Part shown: piece after piece, positions 45,293-64,000 of the stretch
Layout: each line of letters opens with the position of its first letter
Position numbering within the stretch: the stretch's first letter is position 1
DNA from: Psychroflexus lacisalsi
Lineage (GTDB): Bacteria; Bacteroidota; Bacteroidia; Flavobacteriales; Flavobacteriaceae
Direction: 5' to 3'
Assembly: GCF_020164495.1 (NCBI RefSeq)
Contig: NZ_JAIQYZ010000001.1
Coordinates: 992,001-1,056,000, forward strand
DNA: 64,000 nt
Translations under genes and position numbers: made by a program
The notes under the pieces: generated by a model
Seen by the model: the letters and a program-made list of their open reading frames with translations, nothing else
Database searches by the model: none
What the model was told of the DNA's origin: nothing

Positions 45293-45299
45293 TAAGAGT

Positions 45300-45933: not shown

Positions 45934-46041
45934 ACGTCTTTACCTATACAATATCTACTTAAATAATAATTTTCTTTAATTTATACTAGACATAATTATT
46001 ATTATACTATTTTTTTATTCAATTTGTATTTATTGTGGAAA

Positions 46042-46200: not shown

Positions 46201-46250
46201 GTACAAGATCACTATGGTAAATGCGGTTTCAATCCTAGTTTCTTATTGGA

Positions 46251-46615: not shown

Positions 46616-46626
46616 AATTAAGAGAA

Positions 46627-46872: not shown

Positions 46873-46891
46873 ATCAAAAAAACTATCAAAA

Positions 46892-46927
46892 AAAGCCCTC
46901 CGATTATTCGGCAGGACCTTTTTTTAT
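46892..46927 (+). terminator. intrinsic terminator after XRE gene
   Basis: AAAGCCCTCCGATTATTCGG and CAGGACCTTTTTTT form an imperfect stem with core CCGA-TTAT-TCGG, followed by seven T residues. It isolates the CRISPR array from upstream transcription. Confidence 0.65.
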
Positions 46928-46997
46928 GTCTAATAATTTCTTAAGCATATTTTCAATACGGTTTAGCTGTTAAGGAATAATTGAAACCTTATTTAAA

Positions 46998-49900
46998 TCG
47001 ATCAATGCTGGAGGACTTTGTATTTTCATTAATGATTCACAGGAAGCTTCTGCACTTGTTATAGTTGAAGGAGTTGTGAATTGCTTTCAAAATTGTATTT
47101 TCATTAATGATTCACAGGTAAAAAAGCATTTGTAGCATTATACGCTCTGTTGTGAATTGCTTTCAAAATTGTATTTTCATTAATGATTCACAGGCTATAT
47201 CAGTAACGGTGCTATTGGTTTCGCGTTGTGAATTGCTTTCAAAATTGTATTTTCATTAATGATTCACAGGATTTAGCTGCTTATATATTCGTTAACTTTA
47301 GTTGTGAATTGCTTTCAAAATTGTATTTTCATTAATGATTCACAGGATTTACAGAGGCCATATAAACGAAATGGCAGTTGTGAATTGCTTTCAAAATTGT
47401 ATTTTCATTAATGATTCACAGGGCGACTAAGTAATAACATTTATCAACTTCCGTTGTGAATTGCTTTCAAAATTGTATTTTCATTAATGATTCACAGGTA
47501 AAAAAGATTTGGTTAAATATTATAATCAGTTGTGAATTGCTTTCAAAATTGTATTTTCATTAATGATTCACAGGTTAAAACACAAATTGGAGAATCACTT
47601 ACAGGTTGTGAATTGCTTTCAAAATTGTATTTTCATTAATGATTCACAGGTTAAAACACAAATTGGAGAATCACTTACAGGTTGTGAATTGCTTTCAAAA
47701 TTGTATTTTCATTAATGATTCACAGGCATTTGTCAATTTTAAACTCAGCAATACAGTTGTGAATTGCTTTCAAAATTGTATTTTCATTAATGATTCACAG
47801 GATTCATTAAAATGTTTTTCTGTAAGGTCTTGTTGTGAATTGCTTTCAAAATTGTATTTTCATTAATGATTCACAGGGTTGAACAGGAATTAACAGAATA
47901 GATATGGTTGTGAATTGCTTTCAAAATTGTATTTTCATTAATGATTCACAGGACTTTTTTAAACTTGTAAATATTGGAGGTGGTTGTGAATTGCTTTCAA
48001 AATTGTATTTTCATTAATGATTCACAGGAAAAGTGATGGATGGCTCCTTGATCGCTATGTTGTGAATTGCTTTCAAAATTGTATTTTCATTAATGATTCA
48101 CAGGGACGAAGAAGGAAACCCTACAGGAGAATACGTTGTGAATTGCTTTCAAAATTGTATTTTCATTAATGATTCACAGGATTGGCTGAGTTTGAAAAAC
48201 AGTCAACTGCGTTGTGAATTGCTTTCAAAATTGTATTTTCATTAATGATTCACAGGTTCTACCCTACTCGATCTCAAATGGATCAAGTTGTGAATTGCTT
48301 TCAAAATTGTATTTTCATTAATGATTCACAGGTATTTTTATAAACTACTCTAGGTATAAAGAGTTGTGAATTGCTTTCAAAATTGTATTTTCATTAATGA
48401 TTCACAGGTTCTAGTTTTCGACGATGTTAAAAAGAATTGTTGTGAATTGCTTTCAAAATTGTATTTTCATTAATGATTCACAGGAAATCGTAAGTAATGA
48501 AAAACACATATCGAGTTGTGAATTGCTTTCAAAATTGTATTTTCATTAATGATTCACAGGCCTGTCTCAACAAGTGTAAGTGTTGAATCCGTTGTGAATT
48601 GCTTTCAAAATTGTATTTTCATTAATGATTCACAGGCCTGGTACTTTGAGGGATTCTGTGGCCATTGTTGTGAATTGCTTTCAAAATTGTATTTTCATTA
48701 ATGATTCACAGGAGTGTATTGTTGGCCACAGGATTGAAGGAAGTTGTGAATTGCTTTCAAAATTGTATTTTCATTAATGATTCACAGGCTGAGGTGCCGA
48801 TGGGAATGCGGGCGGTACGTTGTGAATTGCTTTCAAAATTGTATTTTCATTAATGATTCACAGGATGCTGACATTGCAGAAGAGAGACAAATTGGTTGTG
48901 AATTGCTTTCAAAATTGTATTTTCATTAATGATTCACAGGTGAAAAGATGCAACGCTTTAGAAGGAGGGTGTTGTGAATTGCTTTCAAAATTGTATTTTC
49001 ATTAATGATTCACAGGCATCTGCTCTAAGTTGATCGCCTATTCCAGGTTGTGAATTGCTTTCAAAATTGTATTTTCATTAATGATTCACAGGTGGAGTTT
49101 GACGTTGTTTGGCTCAATTCGGTTGTGAATTGCTTTCAAAATTGTATTTTCATTAATGATTCACAGGCCCCTACAAGTGCTAGCCTAGCATCTTGAGTTG
49201 TGAATTGCTTTCAAAATTGTATTTTCATTAATGATTCACAGGGTTGAATTAATTGCATACACAAATATAACAGTTGTGAATTGCTTTCAAAATTGTATTT
49301 TCATTAATGATTCACAGGCAGCAGAACAGCATTGTTTCTTTGGAATAGTTGTGAATTGCTTTCAAAATTGTATTTTCATTAATGATTCACAGGATTATCT
49401 GGCCAACAAAAAAATAGATTTCTGTTGTGAATTGCTTTCAAAATTGTATTTTCATTAATGATTCACAGGAAATCCTTAGTACAAGTTGGAGCTAACAGCG
49501 TTGTGAATTGCTTTCAAAATTGTATTTTCATTAATGATTCACAGGCTGCCTTTATTGAGCTATTTACAGCAGATGGTTGTGAATTGCTTTCAAAATTGTA
49601 TTTTCATTAATGATTCACAGGGTAGTGCCAAGTATCAATCTATAAAACTTGGTTGTGAATTGCTTTCAAAATTGTATTTTCATTAATGATTCACAGGTTG
49701 TGGCTTTGCTATATACATCACTTGTGGGTTGTGAATTGCTTTCAAAATTGTATTTTCATTAATGATTCACAGGATCACAGCTTTCAAAGATATAAGAGAA
49801 ACAGTTGTGAATTGCTTTCAAAATTGTATTTTCATTAATGATTCACAGGAATGGTTGCTCAAGTAGCAAGTAATATTTAGTTGTGAATTGCTTTCAAAAT

Positions 49901-50532
49901 TGTATTTTCATTAATGATTCACAGGTTTGAAGACTTGCAAGCTTTCGCGAGCGAAGTTGTGAATTGCTTTCAAAATTGTATTTTCATTAATGATTCACAG
50001 GGAAATGTACAAAAGAGGAAAAACCTTATTTGTTGTGAATTGCTTTCAAAATTGTATTTTCATTAATGATTCACAGGTCCCTCTATAAGAGAAGCTGTGG
50101 TGGGATAGTTGTGAATTGCTTTCAAAATTGTATTTTCATTAATGATTCACAGGGTTTTGCTTGGTCTTTACTTGCTCCAGATGGTTGTGAATTGCTTTCA
50201 AAATTGTATTTTCATTAATGATTCACAGGCAATTTGACCTTGGGGATAGTGTTTACTTAGTTGTGAATTGCTTTCAAAATTGTATTTTCATTAATGATTC
50301 ACAGGAAAACAGATCCTCCAAAGCAAACCACAGAGGTTGTGAATTGCTTTCAAAATTGTATTTTCATTAATGATTCACAGGAAAGCTTCAAAAGCTTATA
50401 AATCTCATCGAGTTGTGAATTGCTTTCAAAATTGTATTTTCATTAATGATTCACAGGCGATCAAGATAATTTCCCATTGAACAAAAGTTGTGAATTGCTT
50501 TCAAAATTGTATTTTCATTAATGATTCACAGG
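46998..50532 (+). CRISPR. type II-C CRISPR array, 46 repeats plus one degenerate repeat
   Basis: Forty-six identical 46-bp repeats (47073 to 50532) begin GTTGTGAATTGCTTTCAAAA and end ATTAATGATTCACAGG, separated by 30-base spacers; six spacers in the array are 29 bases. A 47th, degenerate repeat at 46998-47043 keeps only its last 26 bases, giving 46 spacers in all. Spacers at 47575-47604 and 47651-47680 are identical. The repeat has an internal GTGAAT/ATTCAC inverted pair. The tracrRNA anti-repeat pairs with the + strand form, so the crRNAs are read left to right, towards a terminator that touches the last repeat. The cas genes face the array from the right. Confidence 0.99.
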
Positions 50533-50566
50533 GTATCAGCTGTAAAATGCTGATACCTTGTTTTTT
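50532..50566 (+). terminator. terminator abutting the last CRISPR repeat
   Basis: GGTATCAGC / GCTGATACC, a perfect 9-base stem, 8-base loop, then TTGTTTTTT. The first base of the stem is the last base of the final repeat. A second inverted repeat TTTTTTAAGC / GCTTAAAAAA follows at 50561-50588 and may act on the cas side. This fixes the direction of array transcription. Confidence 0.88.
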
Positions 50567-50627
50567 AAGCAATAAATAGCTTAAAAAAAATGAAAGAAAT
50601 GGATAGGGTCTAAAGGAAAATATAGGT

Positions 50628-50978
<351 letters not shown>

Positions 50979-50989
50979 TCATTATTTGG

Positions 50990-51892
50990 TTATGAATTAA
51001 ATTCAGGATATAATAGGCGTCTTGAACTTCCCTCAAGACAGAAAAATAAACTAGTAGTTGTTCTGCTTAAGGCATTCATCAAAGGACTTTTTTGTCCTTC
51101 AATAGTAACGTCTAGGACTGGAATTTGTAATAGCTTCATCTTAAGTTCAGTATTCATTTCAATATCTGGATCATCTAAATCTTTAATAATATCATAGACC
51201 AGATCATCGACGTAAATGCGATATGGTTCCATCAAATCGTCAGCTAAACAATAAGCATTGTATTTATTGCGATGAAAAATACCCAGATTGGGAAGTAGAC
51301 CACTTGCTATTATTGCTCTTGCTGTTGAAGCTCTTAAAATGGCATAACCATAATTCAATAAATGATTTGGTGAAATCCCTTTAGGAGTTCTATTAAAGTT
51401 GGGGATATCAAATAAGTGTTGCCAGTAATAAGCAGCAGAAACCCCTTCATGATTTTCAAGATCACCACTTTTTACTTGCTTACTCCAGTTAATCAATTTA
51501 AGTCCGTTCTTTTCTCTTTTTTTTAGATGATGGGCTTGATTCCTTATTTTATAGGTAATGGTTTGTTGCCATAAATTCTTTTTTAAAGGAATGCTGGCAT
51601 CCATTTGATACCGGATGCGTTCCATTTGTTCACTATGCCCATTGAGGGGTTGTAATAAACTGATGGGCAAATGGAACTGATCGCAGTTAACAATAGCCGT
51701 TTTGTTTTGAATCAATTTGGTAATTAAGCCATTGGTTAGTGTTATTTGTTGATTCTCTAAAATGAGCATTCCAATATCTTCAATAGGAACAGTTCTATCT
51801 TCTTTATGGTCTTCAGGGAAACGAATATATAATTGTTGGTGTTTGGTGCTGAGATAGGCTGGGTTTGAAAAAAATAAAGTGCGTTTTATCAT
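50990..51892 (-). CDS. cas1: CRISPR integrase Cas1
   Basis: The spacer-integration nuclease, 300 residues. The N-terminal strand domain (LFFSNPAYLSTKHQQLYIRF) and the helical catalytic domain are present. Metal ligands are visible as Glu in the NHEGVSAAYYWQHLF segment, His in GIFHRNKYNAY and an acidic residue in LADDLMEPYR. It is encoded 11 bases after cas9. Confidence 0.97.
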   Translation of the reverse strand: MIKRTLFFSNPAYLSTKHQQLYIRFPEDHKEDRTVPIEDIGMLILENQQITLTNGLITKLIQNKTAIVNCDQFHLPISLLQPLNGHSEQMERIRYQMDASIPLKKNLWQQTITYKIRNQAHHLKKREKNGLKLINWSKQVKSGDLENHEGVSAAYYWQHLFDIPNFNRTPKGISPNHLLNYGYAILRASTARAIIASGLLPNLGIFHRNKYNAYCLADDLMEPYRIYVDDLVYDIIKDLDDPDIEMNTELKMKLLQIPVLDVTIEGQKSPLMNALSRTTTSLFFCLEGSSRRLLYPEFNS

Positions 51893-51903
51893 TTAATTAA
51901 GTT

Positions 51904-54900
51904 TTAGTATTCGCCTATCTGTACTACTTTACCTAGATGATTTAGTCTTACTTTTTTAATCTGTCCCACTCCAGATAAACCAGTTCTTAACCAACTCAAA
52001 TGATGAGTTTCTTTAATATTATCTACGTTAGTTTCAAGATGATGTCTGAAAAAATAATCTCTATTTGTAAATTTTTGCATCCTAAATAAATTCCCACTTA
52101 TCCGTGATTGATGTGATGAGGCCAAAAGATCAATTTCATTTGGGTTAAAGCTATTTTCTTCATTTGGAAATACAAACATTTCATTCTGTTTCATGGTGAA
52201 CAAAAACTCCCAACCTTTTTCGTGATGTTTATTGATTATTGGGAGCCCAATATTTTTCCTTGTAACAGCTTCATAAAAAGACACAACTTCTTCCTGTAAA
52301 TTACCTTTGTCATCTTTATAAATGGCCACGTGATGGTTATTCCCAGTACTTACGTAATCTGTAGGAACCGAATCACCATGCTTATCTTTAAGTTCTTGAT
52401 TAATATGGTTTTTAGCATGGTGTAAAGGTTCAGCATTTGATACCCCCTTGATTTTAACGCGCTTAATTTTGATTCCCTTTTCTTTATTTAACCATATGGG
52501 ATTCTTATCTAAATTAGCAAAGGCGTCTTTAGATTTATCATTAAACTCTTTTAATCGTTTTTTAAGAATAGCCTTTATTCCATCATCTATAACTTTATCC
52601 AGCTTCAAGTCAGGAGTTACTTCTTTCCTAATCGTATACCGACCTTCAAGCCAAGCCATCTTAACTTTATCTGGAACAGTTTCTTGTGTCCCGTTAATGT
52701 AAATAGGATTTTTAGTCAAAGAATTTGAACCTGTAAAAGCTATTTTAGAGTTATTTTCAAACTCACCTAAACGTTTTAATAGAGCTTTTCTGTAGGTCTT
52801 GCTTGCAACTAAGCCTATCATCTCTTGATTAAACTTACTACCCACTTTTTCAAGTTTCGTTTCGTAATACTGCGACTTTCCATAAATCGTTTCTTTATGA
52901 AGTTGGCCTCTAGGGGTTTGTACAGTTTGATATTTAAACTTATTATTACCTTCTACGTTGATTTTATTTTTATTCTTAGTAGTGACCTTATTTTTAGTTT
53001 TAAATGAAATTAAAATTTGAGATAATTGCTCTTTAGACTCTTTCCTTATAGTTGGAAAAGGAGCAATAAATTTTCGTTTACCTTTTTCGTCTTTGTAGGT
53101 ATAGGTATTTTCAAGCTTATAGATTTCCTTGTTAGATTTGGCATTTAGGTTGTTTAAATATTGTATAATGCCAGGTTTCGTAAACGCAACCGTAATAGCA
53201 TCCATCGCATGATGCCTGTGGTCATTTCGCTTCGACCAATCTTTTATTCTAGGTAACTTTTTACCTTCTTTATTTTCTTTATAATAGGTTAAGCCTACTT
53301 TTTCATACTTATCCCAATTAAGTTCCTGCATAACTTGAATTAGACCCCAATCTTCTCTCAACTTACTAGTGATTTTTCCAGAAGTTAAACTAACACGTCT
53401 TGTAATATCTAGTAAAATTTCAGCAGCTTTTTTAGCGATATAAGCAGAAGTACCTAGATCTCTATTTAGAAAATCTTCTGGTATATCATTTAAAGACATT
53501 AATAACTTGTTTTGTTTAGAGTATTTAATCTTTCCAGCTTTAAAAAGCTCCTCGACACGTTTTCTATACTTTTCAAGTCCTTCTTTACCGTATTTTCTTC
53601 CCACAAAATCAAGAGCCGTTTCGTCCCCTTTATCTAGATTACTTTTCCTCGTTTCCAAAGTTTTATTTGAAAAAGAATCATCAAAAAGTCTTGATTTTGG
53701 AATGATATGTTCGATATCGTATTTTTTGGAAAATAAGTCTTCAGGCTTTATATACTCATCAGTATATAAAGTACGGTATCCATTGGTTTCAAGTTCCTTA
53801 TAAAGCTTATAGCGAATTAAATCATTGCGGCTAACGTGTGGCAAACCAAACTTACTTTTTATTTCATTCCTATATTTCTCATGATCTTTGGTTGCTCTTC
53901 CTATCGCTTTAGTCATTTCACTCCGTTGCTCCTTTGTATTTTTAAGTTCTCGAGCGAGTTCAATTCTAATTTCGTCTGGTCTTCCCATTTCAGAATCTTC
54001 AATAATTGCGTTGACCACATTTATACATTGGTTAAGTATTTTCTCAACAACAGGATTTCTTAGACTATTTTTCTTTAGTATTTCAAGCTTTGGTTTAAGC
54101 TCTCTTTCCTCATTTTGTTTTTTTGTGATAGAATTAGAATGGTTATATCCTGCTAGTTCACATGCTTCTGAGTACAATTTACCATCCTCCAGATAAGGTA
54201 ATATCTTCCTAATGGCTCTTGCGCTTAGGCTACCATAATCATCTTGAAAACTGATGTTTATTAAATAGTGTAAATGCTCATCTTTAAATCCAAATGTTGA
54301 TTTTAGTTTTTGTTCAAGCGATTCGGTTCCTGTTCTTGTGAAATCGTCTTCATAGGAATAAAGTAAATGCCATAATTCGTAAGACTCTTGTTTAGAAAAA
54401 GGATTTCCTTTTAATGTTGAATTAAATTCAAGAATTCCTTTATCAATTCCAATTTCATCAAAACATTTTTTTAAAATCTCAATTAGATCCTCTCCATCTA
54501 TATTAGAATAGTCAATATTGTCGTAGCCTTCAATTCTTAAAATCTCTTTGTAAGTTTTAAGTAAATTATAATTAGTTCTGTTTCCCTCGACTGTTTTAAA
54601 ATTTATTTTCCATTCATTTGGCTTTAAGCCCAATTCCTTCAAAAATTGTTTATCAGTTAATTTATCAATCCAATTTAATGTTTGAAAAAGCTCTTTATTT
54701 GTCTCTTCTTCGATATGGTATACCTCGTTAGTTTTGACATTCGTAATTCTAACAGAGTTCAAGTTTTGCCATACTTTAAACTCTTGAAATAAGGGAGATG
54801 ATTTTGGCACAACACGGTGTCCTACTATTTTATTCTTTTTTTCCCCGTCAATAATTACTTCTTGTTCCCAACTCTCAAACTCACAATAGCTGATTAGTCC

Positions 54901-56016
54901 TTTTTGAGACTTAAGCCTTCGCTGGTAGAAAATGATTTCATTTTGAATTTTATCTCTTAATTCATTTGTCAACTCTGGATAAAATTCAGCTTGTTTTCCC
55001 CAGATTTTTTGAAACTCATTAAGATAGTCCTGCCTATAAAATACTTGATTTTTTAAACTATTATGAGGGTTTTTAGCGATCTGCTTGTATTGGTATTCAC
55101 CAACGGTCATATTGTTGAAATGTAGTTCCTTGCTACGGTCACTAATTTCACTTAAATAACCACTAGACTTATTAATCTCACTATTTATATCTTGTAAAAC
55201 AATTGCTAAATATTCTAGTCCTATTTTTTCAGATAATGCTAGTTTTCTGAGTTTATAGGTCTCTAATTTTTTATCTGCTTTACTTCCATCTATCTTAATT
55301 CCTTTGATACTGAATGGTTTTTCACAAATCTTCCAAGTTTGGTTTTTATTTTTGCCTTCAACTTCTTTAAAAAGCTCTGCAGTTAAGGCTTCGGGATAAT
55401 ATTTTTTTTGATGATTCCAAACTTTATTAAATTCATTTTCAAGATCAGATCGATAGTAGTCTGGTAAAGATTTCTTACCATCTTTTAATAGTGTAAATGA
55501 AAATTCGCCCGGTGTCAAATCGTGGTCATACAACTTTTTGGTTATGTCCATTGAATCTATTAACTCTCCTTCTTCGCTATTGTTAGCTTTTCTACTACTT
55601 TTATACCCACGCTTCTTATTAATTGATAAAAGAACCCTAGCAAATTCATCTTTTTTTAATTTCTCAGAAACAGCATTATTTCTCAAACTCAATAACTCAT
55701 GTGATGAGTTTTTACCGGTTTCCGTCAGTTTGGTTTTCTGATTTATAAAATTTATAAGTTTTAATTCATCAATCAATGCTTTTCTTCTAAGCTGATATCT
55801 AAACTTATTTCTTCTTGCGCCTCTTTTTAAGGTCCGATCTGCATTAATTGTTATACTATTTCCTTTTTTAAAGTCATTTTCTTCATCAGTTGAAATAGGA
55901 ACCACTCTTACACCAGTATTAACTATGGATGACTTTTCGTTTTCATTTTCTGCTTCTTTTACAAAAGCCCATCCAATGGAAGTTGTCCCTAAATCCAATC
56001 CTAAAATTTTTTTCAT
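51904..56016 (-). CDS. cas9: RNA-guided DNA endonuclease Cas9, subtype II-C
   Basis: Effector nuclease of 1370 residues. RuvC-I has Asp8 (ILGLDLGTTSIGWA); the Arg-rich bridge helix follows (RTLKRGARRNKFRYQLRRKA); RuvC-II has Glu686 (EIRIELAREL); the HNH domain has His770 (YDIEHIIPKS) and a downstream NKTLETRKSNLDKGD; RuvC-III has His935/His936 and Asp939 (HHAMDAITVAF). All nuclease residues are intact, so it should cut both strands. The length is large for II-C but usual for Bacteroidetes. It heads the cas9-cas1-cas2 operon, and its start codon lies next to the divergent tracrRNA promoter. Confidence 0.98.
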   Translation of the reverse strand: MKKILGLDLGTTSIGWAFVKEAENENEKSSIVNTGVRVVPISTDEENDFKKGNSITINADRTLKRGARRNKFRYQLRRKALIDELKLINFINQKTKLTETGKNSSHELLSLRNNAVSEKLKKDEFARVLLSINKKRGYKSSRKANNSEEGELIDSMDITKKLYDHDLTPGEFSFTLLKDGKKSLPDYYRSDLENEFNKVWNHQKKYYPEALTAELFKEVEGKNKNQTWKICEKPFSIKGIKIDGSKADKKLETYKLRKLALSEKIGLEYLAIVLQDINSEINKSSGYLSEISDRSKELHFNNMTVGEYQYKQIAKNPHNSLKNQVFYRQDYLNEFQKIWGKQAEFYPELTNELRDKIQNEIIFYQRRLKSQKGLISYCEFESWEQEVIIDGEKKNKIVGHRVVPKSSPLFQEFKVWQNLNSVRITNVKTNEVYHIEEETNKELFQTLNWIDKLTDKQFLKELGLKPNEWKINFKTVEGNRTNYNLLKTYKEILRIEGYDNIDYSNIDGEDLIEILKKCFDEIGIDKGILEFNSTLKGNPFSKQESYELWHLLYSYEDDFTRTGTESLEQKLKSTFGFKDEHLHYLINISFQDDYGSLSARAIRKILPYLEDGKLYSEACELAGYNHSNSITKKQNEERELKPKLEILKKNSLRNPVVEKILNQCINVVNAIIEDSEMGRPDEIRIELARELKNTKEQRSEMTKAIGRATKDHEKYRNEIKSKFGLPHVSRNDLIRYKLYKELETNGYRTLYTDEYIKPEDLFSKKYDIEHIIPKSRLFDDSFSNKTLETRKSNLDKGDETALDFVGRKYGKEGLEKYRKRVEELFKAGKIKYSKQNKLLMSLNDIPEDFLNRDLGTSAYIAKKAAEILLDITRRVSLTSGKITSKLREDWGLIQVMQELNWDKYEKVGLTYYKENKEGKKLPRIKDWSKRNDHRHHAMDAITVAFTKPGIIQYLNNLNAKSNKEIYKLENTYTYKDEKGKRKFIAPFPTIRKESKEQLSQILISFKTKNKVTTKNKNKINVEGNNKFKYQTVQTPRGQLHKETIYGKSQYYETKLEKVGSKFNQEMIGLVASKTYRKALLKRLGEFENNSKIAFTGSNSLTKNPIYINGTQETVPDKVKMAWLEGRYTIRKEVTPDLKLDKVIDDGIKAILKKRLKEFNDKSKDAFANLDKNPIWLNKEKGIKIKRVKIKGVSNAEPLHHAKNHINQELKDKHGDSVPTDYVSTGNNHHVAIYKDDKGNLQEEVVSFYEAVTRKNIGLPIINKHHEKGWEFLFTMKQNEMFVFPNEENSFNPNEIDLLASSHQSRISGNLFRMQKFTNRDYFFRHHLETNVDNIKETHHLSWLRTGLSGVGQIKKVRLNHLGKVVQIGEY

Positions 56017-56022
56017 AATATG

Positions 56023-56051
56023 TTGGTTATCTAATTATATTAATATCTTTG
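56023..56051 (+). promoter_or_regulatory. tracrRNA promoter
   Basis: TTG (56023-56025), 18 bases, then TATCTTTG (56044-56051): a full Bacteroidetes TTG-N18-TAnnTTTG promoter on the + strand. Initiation 5-7 bases downstream would fall exactly at the start of the anti-repeat (56057). The -33 element lies only 7 bases from the cas9 ATG on the other strand. Confidence 0.75.
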
Positions 56052-56055
56052 TTTC

Positions 56056-56137
56056 ACAATTTTGAAGCAATTCACAATAAGGATTATTCCGTTGTGAAAA
56101 CATTTAAAGCGGCCTTTACGGGTCGCTTTCTTCTTTT
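56056..56137 (+). ncRNA. tracrRNA
   Basis: Anti-repeat at 56057-56077 (CAATTTTGAAGCAATTCACA plus A) is complementary to the first half of the CRISPR repeat, with one bulged base. A small nexus-like hairpin GGA-TTAT-TCC follows (56081-56090), then the terminator stem AAAGCGGCC / GGGTCGCTTT (56106-56129, one G-U pair) and a T-rich tail CTTCTTTT. TTCACAA (56071-56077) can also pair with TTGTGAA (56092-56098), offering an alternative fold when no crRNA is bound. It is divergent from cas9. Ends are estimated from the promoter and terminator. Confidence 0.88.
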
Positions 56138-56255
56138 AAAGAACTTAAATCTAATAAATTCTTTCAAAACTCACAACATCTAACGCTAAGGATATGAAAT
56201 TAAATAAGTAATCTCTTGGTTTTTAAAATATTAAAAAAATAACCTATTTACCTTT

Positions 56256-56307
56256 CCCAAATTTTTAACTTCTACTCCGAGCAAGAGTCTAAAATTATCT
56301 AAATTCA
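56256..56307. repeat. left direct repeat flanking the HNH/methyltransferase module
   Basis: 52 bases starting CCCAAATTTTTAACTTCTAC and ending AATTATCTAAATTCA. It matches 58383-58435 with three substitutions and one base of length difference. The right copy is the sequence directly upstream of the M28 peptidase gene. Confidence 0.88.
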
Positions 56308-56385
56308 AACAAGGGATTGATTTAGTAATAAAAAAATATCGCACCATTTCTGGTAAATAAATATTTTAAAGATTTACTAAAACAT

Positions 56386-57246
56386 TCAATATTCCTTCTC
56401 ACTTGGAATTACCCCTCTAACACCTCCGGCAGGATTTTCAACATCACCTTTATAACGCGGAATAATATGAATGTGAACATGTGGAATAGTTTGACCACTA
56501 GCTTCATTAACATTAATACCTATATTATACCCATCTGGATTGAATTTGTTTTGTAAATCTGCTTTAATCAAATTCACTAGAAACCAGCATGCAGATTGCT
56601 CTCTAAAACTAAGTTCAAAATAATCGGAGACTTTTCTTTTAGGAATTACCAGTGTGTGACCTTCTGAAACAGGAAATTTGTCACTAAAAGCAAAACAACT
56701 CGCTAATTCGCCCGCTTGATCTTTAGGTTCAAGTCTTTCAAAAAAAGGACTAGCTTCAGGATTATTTTGATTTAAAAAACAATGATGTTGGTATTCGTAG
56801 ATTTCAACATTATCATTTTTAAAAACTGTTTTGAAGGGAAGTATAACATTGGTCTGGAAAGTTTTAACCTTGTGGATAAAATGAGTTCTAAATCCTGCAT
56901 TTTTAATATCTCTCCTTACGCTGAAATAGGCTTTTCCTCCAAACTTTAGAAGTTTGGAAATTTCAAACAAAACTTTTGCTTGGTCTTGACTTTGGATAAC
57001 ATTTAGGACATAATGACACAGTATAGTATCATAAGTTTTGGTGGGGTAGTGGGGAAAATATTCAGGATCGTAACCAGAAATATTCAGACCTCTCTTTTTT
57101 AATTCTACAACATCTTTCCCAAAGCCACACCCAAAATCGAGAGTCTCGCCTACAATCAATTTTTTATCCAATAAAAGCTTGCTAGGAAAAGACATCTTAT
57201 CTCTTTCTTTGGCTGTGCAATGAGAAAATTGATTTTTGGATGCCAT
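56386..57246 (-). CDS. class I SAM methyltransferase fused to HIT-family hydrolase
   Basis: A 286-residue fusion. Residues 1 to about 155 are a Rossmann-type methyltransferase: motif I LDFGCGFGKD (36-45), acidic SGYDPEY after strand 2, and TYDTILCHYVLNVI for motif IV. Residues from about 165 form a HIT domain: EGHTLVIPKRKVSDYFEL, then GQTIPHVHIHIIPRYKGD with the catalytic triad His256-His258-His260. HIT enzymes hydrolyse nucleotidyl phosphates; the methyl acceptor is unknown. It lies 3 bases after the HNH nuclease gene. A modification plus nucleotide-handling role tied to the nuclease is inferred. Confidence 0.88.
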   Translation of the reverse strand: MASKNQFSHCTAKERDKMSFPSKLLLDKKLIVGETLDFGCGFGKDVVELKKRGLNISGYDPEYFPHYPTKTYDTILCHYVLNVIQSQDQAKVLFEISKLLKFGGKAYFSVRRDIKNAGFRTHFIHKVKTFQTNVILPFKTVFKNDNVEIYEYQHHCFLNQNNPEASPFFERLEPKDQAGELASCFAFSDKFPVSEGHTLVIPKRKVSDYFELSFREQSACWFLVNLIKADLQNKFNPDGYNIGINVNEASGQTIPHVHIHIIPRYKGDVENPAGGVRGVIPSEKEY

Positions 57247-57249
57247 AAC

Positions 57250-58287
57250 TTAATTTAAATATTCAAATCCATTATTGTGAGCAACAGTGATAAGCGGACT
57301 TATAACGTCTTTGTATTGGCTATAATTTATTTGCTCATTATCTTCAAAATTAGGGAAAACTGATAAATACTCTTCTTTAAAATTTTTTGGCATCGATTTT
57401 CCAAATACTTGTATAGCATCATTTTGTAACTTATAAAAGCCATCAAAATATTTTTTAACTAATGGGAGTTTATTGCTTTTAGAGGTATTAAAATTTGAGT
57501 TTATGGGAACTAAGTTCCAAATCAAATCATGAGAGACAAATGAATAAGGCACAAAATGGTCAACGTGATAGTTTTTCGGGTTCAATGTCTCATTGGTGAA
57601 AATACATTTAGTTTCAGGTCTTTTTTCAAGATAAATATTCCAAAATTTGTTTCGCTGTTTGGTTAAACTATTTCGTTTAGCTGGCTTTATCAGTTTATTA
57701 ATAACATCTGGGGTACTAGGGTTTCTAGCTTGAATAAATAAAGCTAAATTCCAATAAATAAAGTCTTTGATTACTTTGGCATTTAATCGAATATAGTCGT
57801 ACCAATTATCATTGACTATAATATGATTTTTAAAAAGGTGATAAATTGAATTTTGAAAATCTAGTTGTGAGGATTCGTAAATTGACTTTTTAGATCCTTT
57901 AAACCAAGGGCTTAGAAACTTATGTGGAACATTTTTATCGAGGTGATAAAGCTTTTTTAAAATAGTGATGTCTTTAGTTTCAATTAAGCACTTTCTTATC
58001 TCTGCTTTATCATCACTAACTTTTATAGAGGTAGAATTGAAGAAATCGTTTATGAGTTGGGATATGTGGTCTTGACTTCCGAATGATAATCTAAAATACT
58101 TTACTGGATACCAAGCATTCGAAATCATACGTGCAAATAATCTATCCTTCTGAATTTCTTTATTACCCCTTTCAACTTCCTCGACAATAGCTAAAAACCA
58201 ATAAAACTTATAAGTTGCTGAAGTATAATTAAAAATACTAGCTAATGCATTGTTATTGATATCAGGAGAAAATGGTAGTTGATTCAT
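57250..58287 (-). CDS. HNH endonuclease domain protein
   Basis: A 345-residue protein. The first about 215 residues are helical and without recognised motif. From residue 218 follows an HNH fold: KCIFTNETL with a single Cys228, HVDHFVPYSF (241-250), WNLVPINSNFN (257-267) and SKSNKLP. The HNH triad is thus His243-or-244/Asn258/Asn267-like and looks intact, though the usual Zn cysteine pairs are mostly missing. First gene of a two-gene unit with the methyltransferase-HIT fusion. A TATATTTG box precedes it. A defence role is plausible but not shown. Confidence 0.85.
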   Translation of the reverse strand: MNQLPFSPDINNNALASIFNYTSATYKFYWFLAIVEEVERGNKEIQKDRLFARMISNAWYPVKYFRLSFGSQDHISQLINDFFNSTSIKVSDDKAEIRKCLIETKDITILKKLYHLDKNVPHKFLSPWFKGSKKSIYESSQLDFQNSIYHLFKNHIIVNDNWYDYIRLNAKVIKDFIYWNLALFIQARNPSTPDVINKLIKPAKRNSLTKQRNKFWNIYLEKRPETKCIFTNETLNPKNYHVDHFVPYSFVSHDLIWNLVPINSNFNTSKSNKLPLVKKYFDGFYKLQNDAIQVFGKSMPKNFKEEYLSVFPNFEDNEQINYSQYKDVISPLITVAHNNGFEYLN

Positions 58288-58304
58288 TTTTTATCTTTTA
58301 CAGT

Positions 58305-58312
58305 CAAATATA
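58305..58312 (-). promoter_or_regulatory. -7 box of the HNH/methyltransferase-HIT unit
   Basis: TATATTTG on the - strand fits TAnnTTTG, 17 bases before the HNH gene ATG. It lies inside the flanking direct repeats, so the module carries its own promoter. No TTG at 17-20 bases was seen. Confidence 0.5.
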
Positions 58313-58382
58313 GTGGAAGTCAGTTTATTTTGAGACACAACTCTTCAATAGCTATGCAAACTGAACTAAAAAATAAGAGGAC

Positions 58383-58435
58383 CCCAAATTTTTAACTTCT
58401 ACCCCAATCAAGAGTCTAAAAATTATCTAAATTCA
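58383..58435. repeat. right direct repeat flanking the HNH/methyltransferase module
   Basis: 53 bases, the partner of 56256-56307. It ends 27 bases before the M28 peptidase ATG and probably is the original copy of that gene's upstream region. Confidence 0.88.
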
Positions 58436-58462
58436 CAATAGTATCATTAAACCCTATAACCC

Positions 58463-60547
58463 ATGCGATATTTTATTATAGTTCTATTGGTGAGTGCTAG
58501 CTTAAACGCACAAACCTATACAGGCTTTACAACAGCCTCTGCCGAAACTCAAGCTCAACAGGAAATCGATTTTTTAAATCAGGTAAAGCCGGCTGACTTT
58601 AAAACCCATCTAAAAACCTTAACCCAAGAGCCCCACATCGCTGGGACGCCCGCCAACGAAAAGGTAAGAGATTATATGGTTACAACTATGGATAAAGCTG
58701 GTTGGTCGGTAGACACCTATCCTTACGAAGTATATATGAGTAGCGGTCCTGGAACCTCATTGGTAGAAGTGGTGTCGCCAGTCTCCAAAATACTCGATCA
58801 GAAAGAGGAAGCTCTGGCAGAAGATCCCTATTCGCAAAACGCCACTCTTGTAAAAGGCTGGAATGCCTACTCAGGAAGTGGAGACGTGACTGCTGAGGTG
58901 ATCTATGCCAATTACGGCACCAAAGCCGATTTTGAAAAGCTGGAAGAACTCGGTGTATCGGTTAAGGGTAAGATCGTGATTGCTAGATACGGTGGCAACT
59001 TCCGCGGGTATAAGGCCAAATTTGCCGAAGCGCATGGAGCAGTCGGACTTATTATCTACACCGATCCTAAAGATTCTGGGTTTACCAAAGGCTTAACCTT
59101 CCCCGAAGGCGTGTATTACAACCCTAGTGCCATCCAACGTGGCTCTTTGCTTACCGCCGACTGGACTGGTGATCCGTTGACGCCTTACCAACCCGCCTTA
59201 CCATTAGACCATAAGGACACTCCAGAGCGTTTGGCGCCAGAGGATGCAGGTCTGCATACTATTCCTGTCACGCCTATTGGTTATGGTGCCGCAGAGTCTA
59301 TTTTTAAATATATGAAAGGCGAGGTGGTTCCTCAAGATTGGCAAGGCGGTTTGCCTTATACCTATAGAGTAGACGGTGGAAAGGATCTGAAAGTAAGACT
59401 CAAAGTGGACCAACCCAAAAAAATGACCAAGATTTATAATGTTGTTGCGACCTTAAAAGGCAAAGAACAACCAGACGAATGGGTGATTCTAGGCTGCCAT
59501 TACGATGCCTGGGCTTTTGGAGCGACAGATCCCAATTCGGGAACCGCCATGCTGTTGAGCTTATCAGAATCATTAGGGCGTTTAGCCGAAGCTGGAAAAA
59601 GACCCAATCGGTCGATTATGATTGCCCATTGGGATGCCGAGGAACATGGGGTAATTGGCTCTAGCGAATGGGTGGAGCAGATGAAGGATGAGCTAAAGGC
59701 TAAAGCGGTGGCTTATATTAATTTAGATGGAGCTGTATCTGGGAAAACCTTTCGAGCGTCATCGGCCCCGAGTCTCAAAACCCTTATTGCTGGCGCTGCC
59801 AAGGCGGTAGACTATCCCTACACAGAGGAAAGCGTTTATGAGCATTGGGCGGGTGAGAAGCCAGAGCCCAATATTGGAAATCTGGGTGGGGGCTCAGATC
59901 ATATTGCCTTTTATATGTTTGCCGGCGTGCCCTCTTTAAGTGGTGGAGCCAGCGGACCTACCTTATACCATACCAATTACGATGACTTTTATTATTACGA
60001 GAATTTCGTAGATCCCGAATTTCAGATGGGACCTATGGTCGAAAAACTGATGGGTATCTTGAGCTTAAGGTTGGCCAATGCCGAGCTTATTCCTTACGAT
60101 ATAGAGCGGTATGCTACAGATTTGGAACTGCATTTTGAAAACGCAACTCAGCAGGTAAAGTCTTTTTATTCTGATTTTACTGGGTTTACAGCTTCAAGCC
60201 AAGCGATATCCAGCTTAAAACTCTCCACTACCTCAGTGGCGAAAGCCTTTGAGGAACAACTTCAAAGCGGGAACTTAAGCAAAAAGCGAACGAAACGACT
60301 GAATGCTAAGCTGATGGCGTTGGAAAAGAGTTTCCTGGACCCTGAAGGCATGCCTTATAGAGACTGGTACAAATCGCTTTACGCTTCCTCCGATCCGTTT
60401 AGCGGCTATGCCTCTTGGATACTTCCAGGCCTGCAGTATCAAATTGAAATGGAAAACAAAGACCAACTTTCCGACTGGGACCAGCGTTACGCCAATGCCA
60501 TCAATGACCTTAACGCTAAGTTGGCTGATATCATGGAGAGTTTGTAG
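58463..60547 (+). CDS. M28 family metallopeptidase, glutamate carboxypeptidase II-like
   Basis: An exported di-zinc peptidase of 694 residues with a short signal peptide (LIVLLVSASLNAQ-like). Domain order matches GCPII/NAALADase: a protease-associated domain (about 150-280, with GVSVKGKIVIARYGGNFRGY), the M28 catalytic domain and a C-terminal helical dimerisation domain. Zn and catalytic residues: His346 (GCHYDAW), Asp356 (DPNSG), Glu393-Glu394 (DAEEHG), Asp in INLDGA, His480 (GGSDHIAF). It probably trims peptides in the periplasm or outside. It is a single gene, richer in GC than the CRISPR region. Confidence 0.94.
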   Translation: MRYFIIVLLVSASLNAQTYTGFTTASAETQAQQEIDFLNQVKPADFKTHLKTLTQEPHIAGTPANEKVRDYMVTTMDKAGWSVDTYPYEVYMSSGPGTSLVEVVSPVSKILDQKEEALAEDPYSQNATLVKGWNAYSGSGDVTAEVIYANYGTKADFEKLEELGVSVKGKIVIARYGGNFRGYKAKFAEAHGAVGLIIYTDPKDSGFTKGLTFPEGVYYNPSAIQRGSLLTADWTGDPLTPYQPALPLDHKDTPERLAPEDAGLHTIPVTPIGYGAAESIFKYMKGEVVPQDWQGGLPYTYRVDGGKDLKVRLKVDQPKKMTKIYNVVATLKGKEQPDEWVILGCHYDAWAFGATDPNSGTAMLLSLSESLGRLAEAGKRPNRSIMIAHWDAEEHGVIGSSEWVEQMKDELKAKAVAYINLDGAVSGKTFRASSAPSLKTLIAGAAKAVDYPYTEESVYEHWAGEKPEPNIGNLGGGSDHIAFYMFAGVPSLSGGASGPTLYHTNYDDFYYYENFVDPEFQMGPMVEKLMGILSLRLANAELIPYDIERYATDLELHFENATQQVKSFYSDFTGFTASSQAISSLKLSTTSVAKAFEEQLQSGNLSKKRTKRLNAKLMALEKSFLDPEGMPYRDWYKSLYASSDPFSGYASWILPGLQYQIEMENKDQLSDWDQRYANAINDLNAKLADIMESL

Positions 60548-60700
60548 AAGACTAGTTTCTGAGTTCCTTAGTTGTGTGAGTCGTGAATAGTTTACTGTTT
60601 TTAGTTTATTGTTTCTCGTATAGCTGTATAATGGAGTAGTGGTGTAGTAGGAGAGACGTGAGTCGTCATAAGTGAATCATGAATCGGGGTGAACAGCAAT

Positions 60701-61441
60701 GTCATTTCGATACATTTTTATTCCGTTGCACTCCATAAAAACACTCAATGACCAACCCCATTCTGGTGGCTGAGTGATCCGACGACTGGTGGCTGAGTGA
60801 TCCCGACATTTTCGTCGGGATTGTATCGAAGCTACCATTCGAAGCCACAGACAACGTCATTTCAATACATTTTTATTCCGTTGCACTCCACAAAAACACT
60901 CAATGACCAACTCCATTCTGGTGGCTGAGTGATCCCGACATTTTTGTCGGGATTGTATCGAAGCTACCTTTCTAAGTTGTTGACAACGTCATTTCGATAC
61001 ATTTTTATTCCGTTGCACTCCACAAAAACACTCAATGACCAACCCCATTCTGGTGGCTGAGTGATACGACGACTGGTGGCTGAGTGATCCCTACATTTTT
61101 GTTGGGATTGTATCGAAGCTACCATTCGAAGCCACAGTCAACGTCATTTCGATACATTTTTATTCCGTTGCACTCCACAAAAACACTCAATGACCAACCC
61201 CATTCTGGTGGCTGAGTGATCCCGACATTTTCGTCGGGATTGTATCGAAGCTACCTTTCTAAGTTGTTGACAACGTCATTTCGATACATTTTTATTCCGT
61301 TGCACTCCATAAAAACACTCAATGACCAACCCCATTCTGGTGGCTGAGTGATACGACGACTGGTGGCTGAGTGATCCCGACATTTTCGTCGGGATTGTAT
61401 CGAAGCTACCATTCGAAGCCACAGTCAACGTCATTTCGAAA
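60701..61441. repeat. alternating higher-order tandem repeat (A-B-A-B-A)
   Basis: Five units, each starting GTCATTTC(G/A)ATACATTTTT: A1 60701-60855 (155), B1 60856-60987 (132), A2 60988-61142 (155), B2 61143-61274 (132), A3 61275-61429 (155), then the first bases of a sixth. A units carry an extra 23-base CGACGACTGGTGGCTGAGTG-type insert and end ATTCGAAGCCACAG; B units end TTTCTAAGTTGTTG. Each unit has terminal inverted motifs TTCGATAC ... GTATCGAA and a hairpin ATCCCGAC / GTCGGGAT. No coding capacity is credible. The rest of the gap (60548-60700) shows nothing definite. Confidence 0.92.
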
Positions 61442-61560
61442 CGTTCCCAAGGTTTCGAATTTTTCGACGAACTTTTTTTGTTAATAAGAGTTAAAACCAT
61501 TTTTCTTTTGAACCCTAATTCAAGTTCGAGCGTAAGTAATGAAAACAAAAAAATATAACG

Positions 61561-62919
61561 ATGAAAAATTTTAAGAAACAATCAATTTTTACAATGATGA
61601 TCCTGGCTTTGGTAATTGTCGGTTGCAGTAGCGACGATGATAACAACAGAATTGTTGAAGAACAAGCTTTGGAAGGCTATGAAAATACTCGAGCTGCTGT
61701 AGATGGTGTAGCGGATTTTATCGATGGTCCTATCGCTAATTTAACTGCCGACCTTGGTGAGCTTACCATGGCAGAAGGAGGTTTTGACGGTGCTACTGTA
61801 GATCCTCAAGCAAAAGTAGCCGCTACCAATGCTGTTGAGGCTTATGAATTGAATCCAACGGATGCGAATGCTGTGATTGCTGCCAACGCCATTGAAGATT
61901 TAGTTGTAGCGAACCGAGTTGCTATTATTACAGATTTCCAACAAATTTTAGGAAACGATTTTCCATCCAACGCAGATCTTGGAGCTCTTATCGCTTCAGT
62001 GGAAGATCGGTTAAATAAGCCTGAAGGTTTGATGGACACGCAGTCAGCTGCTTTTGATGTGATTACCGCTGTGCAAATAAATGGAGTTGCCGTGGAAGCT
62101 TTACTCAATATTGCAAATACACGTTATGAATTAGGTCTGGACGTTCCAACTTATACTGCGCCTAGTATTCCTTCTTCATTGAATACTCAGAATTTATTGG
62201 AGACTGCTTTAAATTCAGTTTCAGCTGTTGGAAGTCTTGCAGTACCTTCTGTAGAAGCTATTCAGGCTATTGTGGACGATTTGTTAATGACTGAAGTTCA
62301 GGCTGGATATGAAACTAATAGAGCAGCGGTTGCGGGTGTGGCCGACTTTATCGATGGACCTATTGGTCAATTGACAGAAGATTTAGGAACCATAACCGAT
62401 AGTGATTTTTCCAGAGTTATGGTAGATGCTCAAGTCAGAGTGGATGCAATGAGTGCGATTGAAGCTTACGAAGCAAATCCTTCAACTGAAACAGCGATTG
62501 CAGCAGCCAACGAAATTGAGAACCTGGTTGTAGCTAACAGAGTAGCTATTATTGGCGACTTTCAACAAATTTTAGCTAATGACTTCCCATCAGATGACGA
62601 CCTGGCAGCTCTTGTCGCTTCAGTTGAAGAAGGATTAGAAAGACCATCAGATCTTTCTGGAGCCGAGAATGCAGTTTTCGATGTGATTGTAGCAGTTCAG
62701 GTTAATGGAGCAGCAGTTGAAGCCTTATTAAATATAGCTAATACAACTTATGAATTGGAACTGGAGATCCCGATGTACGCTGCACCTAGTTTACCCGAGA
62801 TGGCTTCAGAAACGAACTTACTTGTAACTTCAATTGAATCCGTATCAGCAGTCGGTGACCTAGCAGTACCTTCAGTTGAAGCCATTCAGGCTATTGTGGA
62901 TAACGCTTTAGCAAATTAA
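61561..62919 (+). CDS. lipoprotein made of two 210-residue repeats
   Basis: A 452-residue lipoprotein: lipobox LVIVGC ends at Cys22, followed by SSDDD. The mature protein is an internal duplication: repeat 1 starts at Tyr40 (YENTRAAVDGVADFIDGPI) and repeat 2 at Tyr250 (YETNRAAVAGVADFIDGPI), a spacing of exactly 210 residues. Each contains VVANRVAIIxDFQQIL and ends SVSAVGxLAVPSVEAIQAIV. The composition is Ala/Val-rich and helical, acidic and without cysteines. It is probably a surface or periplasmic structural or adhesive protein. No family name is recognised. Confidence 0.8.
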   Translation: MKNFKKQSIFTMMILALVIVGCSSDDDNNRIVEEQALEGYENTRAAVDGVADFIDGPIANLTADLGELTMAEGGFDGATVDPQAKVAATNAVEAYELNPTDANAVIAANAIEDLVVANRVAIITDFQQILGNDFPSNADLGALIASVEDRLNKPEGLMDTQSAAFDVITAVQINGVAVEALLNIANTRYELGLDVPTYTAPSIPSSLNTQNLLETALNSVSAVGSLAVPSVEAIQAIVDDLLMTEVQAGYETNRAAVAGVADFIDGPIGQLTEDLGTITDSDFSRVMVDAQVRVDAMSAIEAYEANPSTETAIAAANEIENLVVANRVAIIGDFQQILANDFPSDDDLAALVASVEEGLERPSDLSGAENAVFDVIVAVQVNGAAVEALLNIANTTYELELEIPMYAAPSLPEMASETNLLVTSIESVSAVGDLAVPSVEAIQAIVDNALAN

Positions 62920-62957
62920 TTTTCTAAAACAGTAGATTTTTTTACGAGTATGTATTT

Positions 62958-62990
62958 AAAGAGTAGGGTTCAAGCCTTACTCTTTTTTGT
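62958..62990 (+). terminator. intrinsic terminator after duplicated lipoprotein
   Basis: AAAGAGTAGGG / CCTTACTCTTT stem with one G-U pair, short loop, then TTTTGT. Confidence 0.8.
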
Positions 62991-63014
62991 TTTGTAATCA
63001 CGCTAAGGTTTTGA

Positions 63015-63175
63015 TAAGGTCATTTCAATACATTTTATTCCGTTTCACTCCATAAAACCACCTACCCGACGAACTCATTAAGGCAGGCCTGCCCGAATGT
63101 GAATACAGACGGGTGATTCTACGTAAGGAGAATCGTATCGGAGCTACCATGAAGCATCGAGATGCCAGCGTTCAC
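63015..63175. repeat. degenerate single copy of the dispersed repeat family
   Basis: AGGTCATTTCAATACATTTT and TCCGTTTCACTCCATAAAAC match the start of the units at 60.7 kb. Then CCCGACGAACTCATTAAGGC with GGCAGGCCTGCCCG (palindromic) resembles the modules at 40.2-41.0 kb, and ATCGTATCGGAGCTACCAT matches the unit end. It fills most of the 322-base gap between the lipoprotein and the ABA4-like gene. Confidence 0.65.
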
Positions 63176-63241
63176 GACTCCGCTCGAACCTGAAACACTC
63201 TCAAGTGAAAGTTAAAATTCACAATTAGTAATTAAGATCCT

Positions 63242-63661
63242 TTATCCCAACTTCTTCGTTTTAGCTGTTTTAATAATAAAATACAGCAGATACCCAACGG
63301 GGCCAAACATAAAGCAGAGTAACAAACAGGGGATGATTAGGAAATGGTTGATGTTTTCTTTTTGTGACTGTTTCAATATCCAGTGGCCAACTAATAAATC
63401 GAATACTAAATAATGCACCCAGCCTGTGACTACTGCTTCATCGGAAGTAAACATGGCTTTGATGCCTTCAAGTTTACTGAAGGACTCCATGTCCAAATCA
63501 CCAAATCCCTGGATGACGTAAATCGCGTAAACGACCGACATGGTAGCGGCGAACGTATAAATTACAGGAGTCTTCCAATGCTTGTTCGGGAAAAATATTA
63601 ATATCAACCAGGCAGGTAAGACAATGGTGTTGACGATTTGAAAAACTACAGATGGAGACAT
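63242..63661 (-). CDS. ABA4-like membrane protein
   Basis: A 139-residue integral membrane protein with four hydrophobic segments (about 5-22, 32-52, 83-100, 108-130). The pattern IVNTIVLPAWLILIFFPN at the start, VVTGWVHYLVFDLLVGHW and the late MFGPVGYLLYFIIKT are characteristic of the ABA4-like (DUF4281) family. In plants ABA4 is needed for neoxanthin formation; in bacteria the role is unknown, a carotenoid link being only a guess. It is a single gene. Confidence 0.88.
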   Translation of the reverse strand: MSPSVVFQIVNTIVLPAWLILIFFPNKHWKTPVIYTFAATMSVVYAIYVIQGFGDLDMESFSKLEGIKAMFTSDEAVVTGWVHYLVFDLLVGHWILKQSQKENINHFLIIPCLLLCFMFGPVGYLLYFIIKTAKTKKLG

Positions 63662-63949
63662 ATGAATGATTTTATTAAAAAAATGGTTCTCATTATTATG
63701 AGTTTCAATATTAAATATAAATTGAAGGATTAATAATTACCAATGTATAAAATTAGTATATTTATGAAAGCAGTGAATTAAAAATCTGAATGATTTACAT
63801 GTAAATGCTTGAATTATAGCTATATCTGATTTGGTTTATAATGACTATAGGATAAAACTATATATCAATTAGAACTACTAATTCGTTTGAGTGCTTATGA
63901 GAATAGTTTCGCTATAATTTTGATATTAATAACACTTAAATATATATCT

Positions 63950-64000
63950 ATGAAAAATTTATTAATTGCAGTATTCAGTTTGTTTACAGTAGCTGTGTTT
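63950..64000 (+). CDS. exported protein, N-terminal fragment
   Basis: The window ends 17 codons into a reading frame that starts MKNLLIAVFSLFTVAVF, a clear signal peptide start. A TAATTTTG -7 box lies at 63915-63922. The 288 bases before it (63662-63949) show no other feature. Product unknown because of the cut. Confidence 0.55.
   Translation, partial: MKNLLIAVFSLFTVAVF

Follow-up and report, generated by a model that had tools for sequence, protein, structure and literature searches.

An HNH nuclease and methyltransferase-HIT gene pair of Psychroflexus lacisalsi: a widespread two-gene operon, possibly a mobile defence module, between direct repeats that probably record an exchange between related strains

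The DNA analysed here, called the window, is a stretch of 64,000 nucleotides from Psychroflexus lacisalsi (contig NZ_JAIQYZ010000001.1, positions 992,001 to 1,056,000 of the forward strand). The element in question is a pair of − strand genes encoding an HNH nuclease and a methyltransferase-HIT fusion, which are separated by 3 bp and enclosed by direct repeats of 52 and 53 nt. The HNH gene (57250-58287, − strand, 345 aa) is an open reading frame (ORF) matching Pfam HNH_4 (E 1.4e-10), and its HNH motif, taken from the Pfam stretch, covers residues 228-275 (57463-57606). The fusion gene (56386-57246, − strand, 286 aa), an ORF assigned with Pfam and NCBIfam, encodes a class I methyltransferase domain at residues 29-111 (56914-57162; Pfam Methyltransf_23, E 8.4e-10) and a HIT domain with the motif GQTxxHxHxH at residues 177-266 (56449-56718; Pfam HIT, E 2e-23). 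Upstream of the HNH gene a TATATTTG box can be seen in the sequence (58305-58312, − strand); this candidate promoter-type element is kept in Psychroflexus gondwanensis and presumably resembles the −7 motif of Bacteroidota. The left repeat copy (56256-56307, + strand, 52 nt) and the right copy (58383-58435, + strand, 53 nt) are identical in 49 of 53 columns, the differences being 3 substitutions and 1 indel. The right copy is the upstream region of the M28 gene and ends 27 bases before its start at 58463. With a 111-base query only these two places, and no third, were detected in the genome itself at E ≤ 0.001. The repeat-bounded segment contains the two ORFs and one gene end, and no ORF of recombinase size. 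An earlier, sequence-only reading had described the locus in the same way: two − strand genes 3 bases apart with their own box, near-identical direct repeats, the right repeat as M28 upstream region, and no integrase.

The pair is a real, widespread two-gene operon. When it was sought in other genomes, as that reading had suggested, it was recovered as an operon in many of them. Long methyltransferase-HIT matches were obtained in 14 of 27 Psychroflexus genomes (that of G202 being truncated), plus a contig-edge fragment in G200. An HNH model match was obtained in 11 of the 27, each directly upstream of methyltransferase-HIT, and G214 has a second, weak one elsewhere. G220, one of the other 3, carries a third HNH type upstream of its methyltransferase-HIT gene (Pfam HNH_4 E 0.0015, below cut-off), and G237 carries a 76-aa piece of the G220-type HNH with methyltransferase-HIT. 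In a phylum sample, 19 of 395 genomes matched methyltransferase-HIT, 2 of them by the HIT part only, and all 17 long matches (that of P. lacisalsi included) lie directly behind an HNH gene, which is of type 1, of type 2 or, in L191, of Pfam family HNH_2; the adjacency in L185 was taken from match positions. A free HIT gene also occurs behind an HNH_2 nuclease and is followed there by a C5 DNA methylase (L196 524-1890).

The coupling was also followed from the side of the nuclease, in the best 80 of 335 HNH relatives by score, and the shares given hold for such near relatives. Directly downstream of these 80 genes are methyltransferase-HIT in 39, a free HIT in 10, the methyltransferase part only in 1 and neither in 30 (one of the 30, L131, has less than 200 bases of downstream DNA), which makes 49 of 80 loci with HIT or methyltransferase-HIT. 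In 22 of 50 adjacent HNH-partner pairs the two genes overlap by 4 bases. The HNH gene occurs with or without the partner from locus to locus, and it can therefore do without this accessory, which in turn is seldom seen without HNH. The distances within the HNH and methyltransferase-HIT families correlate (r 0.81 over 40 pairs, a value that none of 2000 permutations reached), also when Psychroflexus is left out (r 0.80, 31 pairs). On an HNH tree the methyltransferase-HIT label changes 12 times (shuffled mean 28), and well supported branches force 4 changes; this is a quick tree of 84 rows in which 29 of the 81 inner branches have good support, and L169, L054, HNH pieces below 300 aa and duplicate Psychroflexus loci were left out of it. 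A third partner was not apparent, the commonest neighbour families besides the pair being present in only 9 and 8 of 92 loci, and no downstream family occurs more than 2 times behind the 30 HNH genes without HIT. Within the viral contigs and phage records searched, the pair is hardly phage-borne. In viral contigs the methyltransferase-HIT alignment gave 12 pattern matches, none of them a relative, and the HNH search gave 2 loci; among phage records, 19 match methyltransferase-HIT, none over 80% of it (the ten matches listed cover the HIT part only), and one matches HNH partially. Four of 17 plasmid records were viewed. HNH relatives L217 (Synechocystis pSYSM), L219 (Hymenobacter) and L220 (Leptolyngbya) have an annotated cysteine desulfurase within 2 kb, L217 and L219 also have DUF4007, and the fourth record (Allochromatium) has neither.

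The two proteins were then considered by fold and by conservation. In the AlphaFold2 model of the HNH protein, with a predicted local distance difference test score (pLDDT) of 91.3, fold comparison separates an N-terminal helical, winged-helix-like domain (about residues 7-200) from a C-terminal Cas9-type HNH domain (about 206-341). H244, N258, N267 and K270 are invariant in 55 of 55 aligned HNH proteins, and position 243 is D or E. HNH_4 is found in all 55, any other Pfam family in at most 3 at E ≤ 10, and at the same threshold no Pfam family was assigned to the N-terminal domain in the 55. The methyltransferase-HIT model has a pLDDT of 85.2. Motif I (D37-x-G39-x-G41-x-G43) is kept in 24 of 24 members, and the HIT triad consists of H256, H258 and H260; this HxHxH triad and the HIT fold place the protein in the HIT superfamily and predict hydrolase activity. 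Against P. gondwanensis, the ratio of nonsynonymous to synonymous divergence (dN/dS) is 0.15 for HNH, from 15 differences, and 0.30 for methyltransferase-HIT, from 21 differences.

A nuclease and a methyltransferase sharing one operon recall restriction-modification, in which the methyltransferase would mark host DNA and HNH would cut unmarked DNA, and C5 DNA methylase genes do adjoin some relatives (L189, L190, L196). However, the DNA-type motif IV, [DNS]PP[YFW], occurs in the first 165 residues of 0 of 24 members, 286 residues would leave little room for a target recognition domain, and 30 of 80 HNH genes, a large share, stand without a partner of this kind. The motif count led us to reject conventional restriction-modification, the Type II form with a DNA base methyltransferase carrying motif IV, and we consider this rival very improbable. 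By the same count, the modification role assigned by the sequence-only reading is not supported as far as DNA base methylation is concerned.

The surroundings of the pair are rich in defence-like genes. PADLOC families matched at E ≤ 1e-15 number 234 among 110 neighbour proteins vs 14 among 110 controls, a tally that counts families rather than proteins, in which big helicases match many, and which serves as an index only. The neighbour set, drawn from 43 eligible loci outside Psychroflexus and limited to proteins of at most 1700 aa, comprises 110 of 153 proteins, and the control set 110 of 202 proteins from 20 arbitrary stretches. Type I methyltransferases, PLD-helicase-DUF3427 proteins, JetA (Wadjet), PDC-S02 and PAPS-reductase-domain proteins are among the neighbours. 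An anti-phage role of the pair is the most likely one. We regard it as quite improbable that the pair instead serves repair or nucleotide hygiene and sits in variable regions by chance: the purifying selection and the ordinary-looking genes around pairs in several of 13 loci viewed would suit such a role, which is opposed by the patchy distribution (17 of 395 genomes), the 12 changes of partner label and the defence-rich neighbours.

Individual neighbours deserve mention. A DUF3375 (JetA-type) gene lies on the same strand directly behind the pair at L165 11919-13400, and a DUF3584 (JetC-like) gene lies beside it at L078 8239-11946; genes weakly or partially related to those of L078, and probably Wadjet-like, occur at L086 1255-3915 and L057 3-1010. 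In G216 a DdmD-like protein (1181 aa, PADLOC E 1e-51) adjoins the pair, and the 660-aa protein beside the DdmD-like one gave no Pfam or PADLOC match; the two lie at L083 8025-13539. In the window, the neighbour on the left is the gene that the sequence-only reading named cas9 (ORF, 51904-56016, − strand), and a tandem array at 47072-50532 looks like a CRISPR array. Ten further Psychroflexus genomes carry the HNH gene, and the DNA examined around their pairs, in part cut off by contig ends, contained no homologue of the window cas9. As far as this DNA extends, the link between pair and cas9 is local to the window, and cas9 was rejected as a functional partner. Thus, of the earlier proposal of a compact defence module beside a CRISPR locus, the compact module in a defence-rich setting stands, and the association with cas9 is a local one.

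How the pair came to lie between two copies of the M28 upstream region was examined by comparison with related genomes. The HNH protein of P. gondwanensis ACAM 44 (L089) is 99% identical to that of the window, and P. gondwanensis (G218) is collinear with window 56384-60522 at 96%, through the pair, one repeat and M28; at this pair + M28 locus it has neither cas9 nor the left repeat copy. In another Psychroflexus genome, G238, the cas9 start with the flank upstream of it (window 55969-56307, 88%) is joined by a single repeat copy directly to M28 (90%), and no pair lies in between; searches of its proteins gave no HNH model match and a distant HIT match only. Both halves of the window arrangement therefore occur singly in other genomes, and the empty site with a single repeat copy, which the sequence-only reading had recommended seeking in genomes lacking the pair, exists in G238.

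The flanks of the two copies are of different kinds. The left copy is preceded by 60 bases that are 74.6% identical to G238, and this left flank agrees with the left flank of the right copy at only 49% (shuffled mean 51, maximum 60); the right side of the left copy is likewise unlike the M28 side. The 60 bases on each side of the right copy are 92 and 97% identical to P. gondwanensis. From 56301 the window carries the final 19 codons, with the stop codon, of a convergent + strand gene, here called gene X (severed C-terminal end, 56301-56360), which is intact in G238 (117 aa), and this gene end starts within the 7 bases that close the left copy. These bases, AAATTCA, are both the repeat end and part of gene X, and the left junction is thus a 7-bp microhomology join within a severed gene end. 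The intact gene X of G238 likewise faces a methyltransferase-HIT remnant. Two such 3' remnants exist in that genome (L176 6042-6181 and 10119-10170; C1:322542-322681 and 326619-326670); both break at the same base (window 56440) and continue into CRISPR-repeat-like sequence, and they differ in their downstream tail, one being of window type and one of P. gondwanensis type.

The identity of the block was compared with that of its surroundings. In window 18000-37900, matches to P. gondwanensis longer than 100 bases have identities of 65-77% (a single 48-base match has 85%), and 3 long pieces match G199 at 86-93%. To the right of M28, window 63243-64000 is 88% identical to G199 and 63244-63662 is 74% identical to P. 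gondwanensis; left of the CRISPR region the window is 80-85% identical to P. gondwanensis. The pair and M28 were therefore taken as an imported block, because they are 96% identical to P. gondwanensis vs 65-77% in the tested backbone pieces. From P. gondwanensis the pair differs by a synonymous divergence of about 0.05 and M28 by one of 0.18, and M28 is 90% identical to G238 and 69-75% to 8 other Psychroflexus genomes. The M28 gene (58463-60547, + strand) keeps the name used in the sequence-only reading, its protein having only weak peptidase matches in NCBIfam (best E 3.3e-4), and is likely the homologous arm of the import. The simplest history, and in our view the best reading, is homologous recombination in M28 combined with the microhomology join on the other, cas9 side. 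Such a combination of homologous recombination on one side and a microhomology join on the other is called homology-facilitated illegitimate recombination. The pair and the adjoining M28 gene would then have taken part in a recent exchange with a relative that stands close to P. gondwanensis, and this exchange would have left the M28 upstream region in two copies. The direct repeats are thus best read as a recombination scar of exchange between related strains and not as the ends of a mobile element. The recipient could have been a G238-like chromosome that gained the pair, or a pair-bearing one that gained CRISPR-cas9 and the left copy.

The sequence-only reading had taken the left repeat to be a duplication made when the segment was inserted. 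If the repeats were a genuine target-site duplication around a mobile segment, or if the G238 state had arisen by later deletion between the two copies, which could have occurred, the single-copy site without the pair in G238 would be accounted for; moreover, of the 4 sites that differ between the window copies, G238 shares 3 with the right copy and 1 with the left, a pattern that deletion with conversion could yield. We nevertheless give these explanations little credence. P. gondwanensis has the pair with one repeat copy only, a target duplication of 52/53 bp is very long, and the segment lacks a recombinase and begins inside a severed gene. An insertion element with target duplication was rejected on the one-copy filled site of P. 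gondwanensis and on the recombinase not found in the segment. The duplication on insertion thus gives way before the one-copy filled site, the two flank types and the microhomology junction, and homologous recombination, one of the two routes of entry guessed in the same reading, fits best. With the exchange as the preferred history, the locus offers a clear worked case in which direct repeats around defence cargo come from allele exchange and not from an element. The region around M28 and the gene at window 63242-63661 is variable in Psychroflexus (L045 1356-18001; window 44000-64000), and in different genomes it holds the pair, CRISPR-Cas9, dndC, a helicase and other defence-like genes.

Nuclease defences usually pair a cutter with a sensor or a modification enzyme. 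In the mechanism we propose, the N-terminal winged-helix-like domain of the HNH protein may bind or sense nucleic acid, which the Cas9-type HNH domain would cut, and methyltransferase-HIT would be a detachable accessory that works only alongside the nuclease. Its Fhit/Hint-like HIT half may take the nucleotidyl group, adenosine monophosphate (AMP), off a ligase or a DNA end that has been adenylated, and the same end or nucleotide may be modified by the methyltransferase half, which would prevent resealing of the cut. Several HNH families across Bacteroidota are followed by a HIT hydrolase, either fused to a non-DNA-type methyltransferase or without the fusion, and this recurrence points to chemistry downstream of, or regulating, the cut. 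If resealing were indeed blocked, this would explain how a small nuclease beats phage-coded ligases. A mobile two-gene defence operon composed of an HNH effector and a detachable methyltransferase-HIT accessory, with the exchange history and the no-resealing step, is given as a whole a probability of about 0.45. The no-resealing step, taken by itself, is unlikely. Less likely still is the wider proposal of an undescribed repair-blocking immunity module, in which methyltransferase-HIT would be a general plug-on for HNH nucleases of different kinds (HNH_4 types 1-3, HNH_2) and make their cuts irreparable through AMP stripping from ligase or DNA ends and methyl capping. A description of the pair was not found in the literature searched, in line with the earlier remark that no described system with this pairing was known; coverage of subscription papers was poor, so this is no proof of absence.

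Several observations weigh against the mechanism. The proposed action of HIT on DNA ends or ligase is drawn from general knowledge of HIT chemistry. Of the 24 fusion members one lacks H258 and one lacks H256. The accessory is missing from 30 of the 80 HNH genes, the truncated methyltransferase-HIT of G202 occurs without an HNH gene, and a free HIT at L195 1504-1869 has no HNH gene beside it. The neighbour tally is an index. Finally, several of the 13 loci viewed show the pair, by eye, among ordinary genes and not in an island, where it seems to lie as a stand-alone unit would.

A different relation between the two proteins was also weighed, in which HIT-methyltransferase serves as an off-switch or antidote, keeping the HNH nuclease in check by degrading a nucleotide signal or in some other way. 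Such a role has been proposed for ThsC, the HIT protein of Thoeris type II, in PMC8565338. The match of the window protein to the PADLOC ThsC model (E 4.3e-7) and the rarity of the accessory without its nuclease fit this idea, but the 30 of 80 HNH genes without a partner show that the antidote would not be obligatory, and the pair contains no signal-making enzyme. We think the off-switch improbable, though not far-fetched.

It was further considered whether the N-terminal HNH domain might be a relative of DNA sulfur-binding domains, so that HNH would sense or restrict phosphorothioate (PT)-modified DNA. The best fold match of the N-terminal part is to the sulfur-binding-domain HNH endonucleases ScoMcrA and Hga, the methyltransferase part matches TIGR04096, and in G314 an HNH relative (L221 12381-13469) lies head to head with dndC (10801-12135), in a genome without a methyltransferase-HIT match at E ≤ 1e-40. 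Within Psychroflexus, DndC is present in 0 of 14 methyltransferase-HIT-bearing genomes vs 4 of 13 others (p 0.04). However, a sequence search of the Protein Data Bank (PDB) with the N-terminal alignment gave 4 weak matches, none of them a sulfur-binding domain, and DndC is present in none of 92 HNH loci. In the phylum sample the sign is opposite for HNH (DndC in 2 of 11, p 0.04), and for methyltransferase-HIT DndC is present in 0 of 17 vs 12 of 378 (p 1.0). In G206 dndC and M28 are about 13 kb apart, within the variable region where the window has the pair, and the exclusion within the genus may therefore reflect only a shared site. After these tests the PT lead stays weak, and we hold it for rather improbable.

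The pair was finally compared with known systems. No strong match to a known PADLOC-DB 2.0.0 system was obtained, the weak ones being ThsC, mad2, Cas9 and PtuB only (best E 1.9e-7). The ScoMcrA and Hga endonucleases share a winged-helix-like N-terminal domain and a C-terminal HNH domain with the window protein, in which no SRA domain was found with Pfam and no sequence match to them was obtained. The ScoMcrA-type sulfur pocket consists of H116, R117/K and P165 according to PMC6224610. When aligned by eye, its counterparts would be Y26-K27 (55 of 55) and Y60 and P61 (P in 12 of 55), and the pocket proline is not conserved if this alignment is right. The Cas9 HNH domain (Pfam HNH_4, PF13395) has the same HNH fold and catalytic H and N; the HNH profile matches Cas9 chains with a best E of 6.1e-6, and the fold match spans residues 206-341. 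In contrast to Cas9, the window protein has 345 aa, another N-terminal domain and no RuvC match in Pfam, and with HNH_4 alone it was not assigned to Cas9, for which both RuvC and HNH are expected, together with guide-RNA lobes. Septu PtuB is likewise the HNH nuclease of a two-gene system and matches weakly at model level (E 2.6e-4), but the window partner is not the PtuA ATPase, the neighbours of HNH being methyltransferase-HIT and M28, and the pair was not assigned to Septu. TIGR04096, a DNA phosphorothioation-associated putative methyltransferase, is matched by all 24 members scanned, residues 9-89 of the window protein corresponding to model positions 5-87 in the first part of the methyltransferase. 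The score is 59.8 bits vs a cut-off of 150, however, and the rest of the 478-position model is unmatched, with the HIT domain in its place. In Thoeris type II, as PMC8565338 describes it, the HIT protein ThsC is also an added gene in a defence operon. Unlike ThsC, the window HIT is fused to a methyltransferase and partnered with an HNH nuclease, and the flanking genes are cas9 and M28; membership in Thoeris type II was rejected, since HNH and cas9 stand where ThsA and ThsB would be expected. The Fhit and Hint HIT hydrolases share the fold and the HxHxH triad, Fhit and bacterial HIT chains being the best matches, and the window HIT differs from them by its methyltransferase fusion and its link with an HNH gene.

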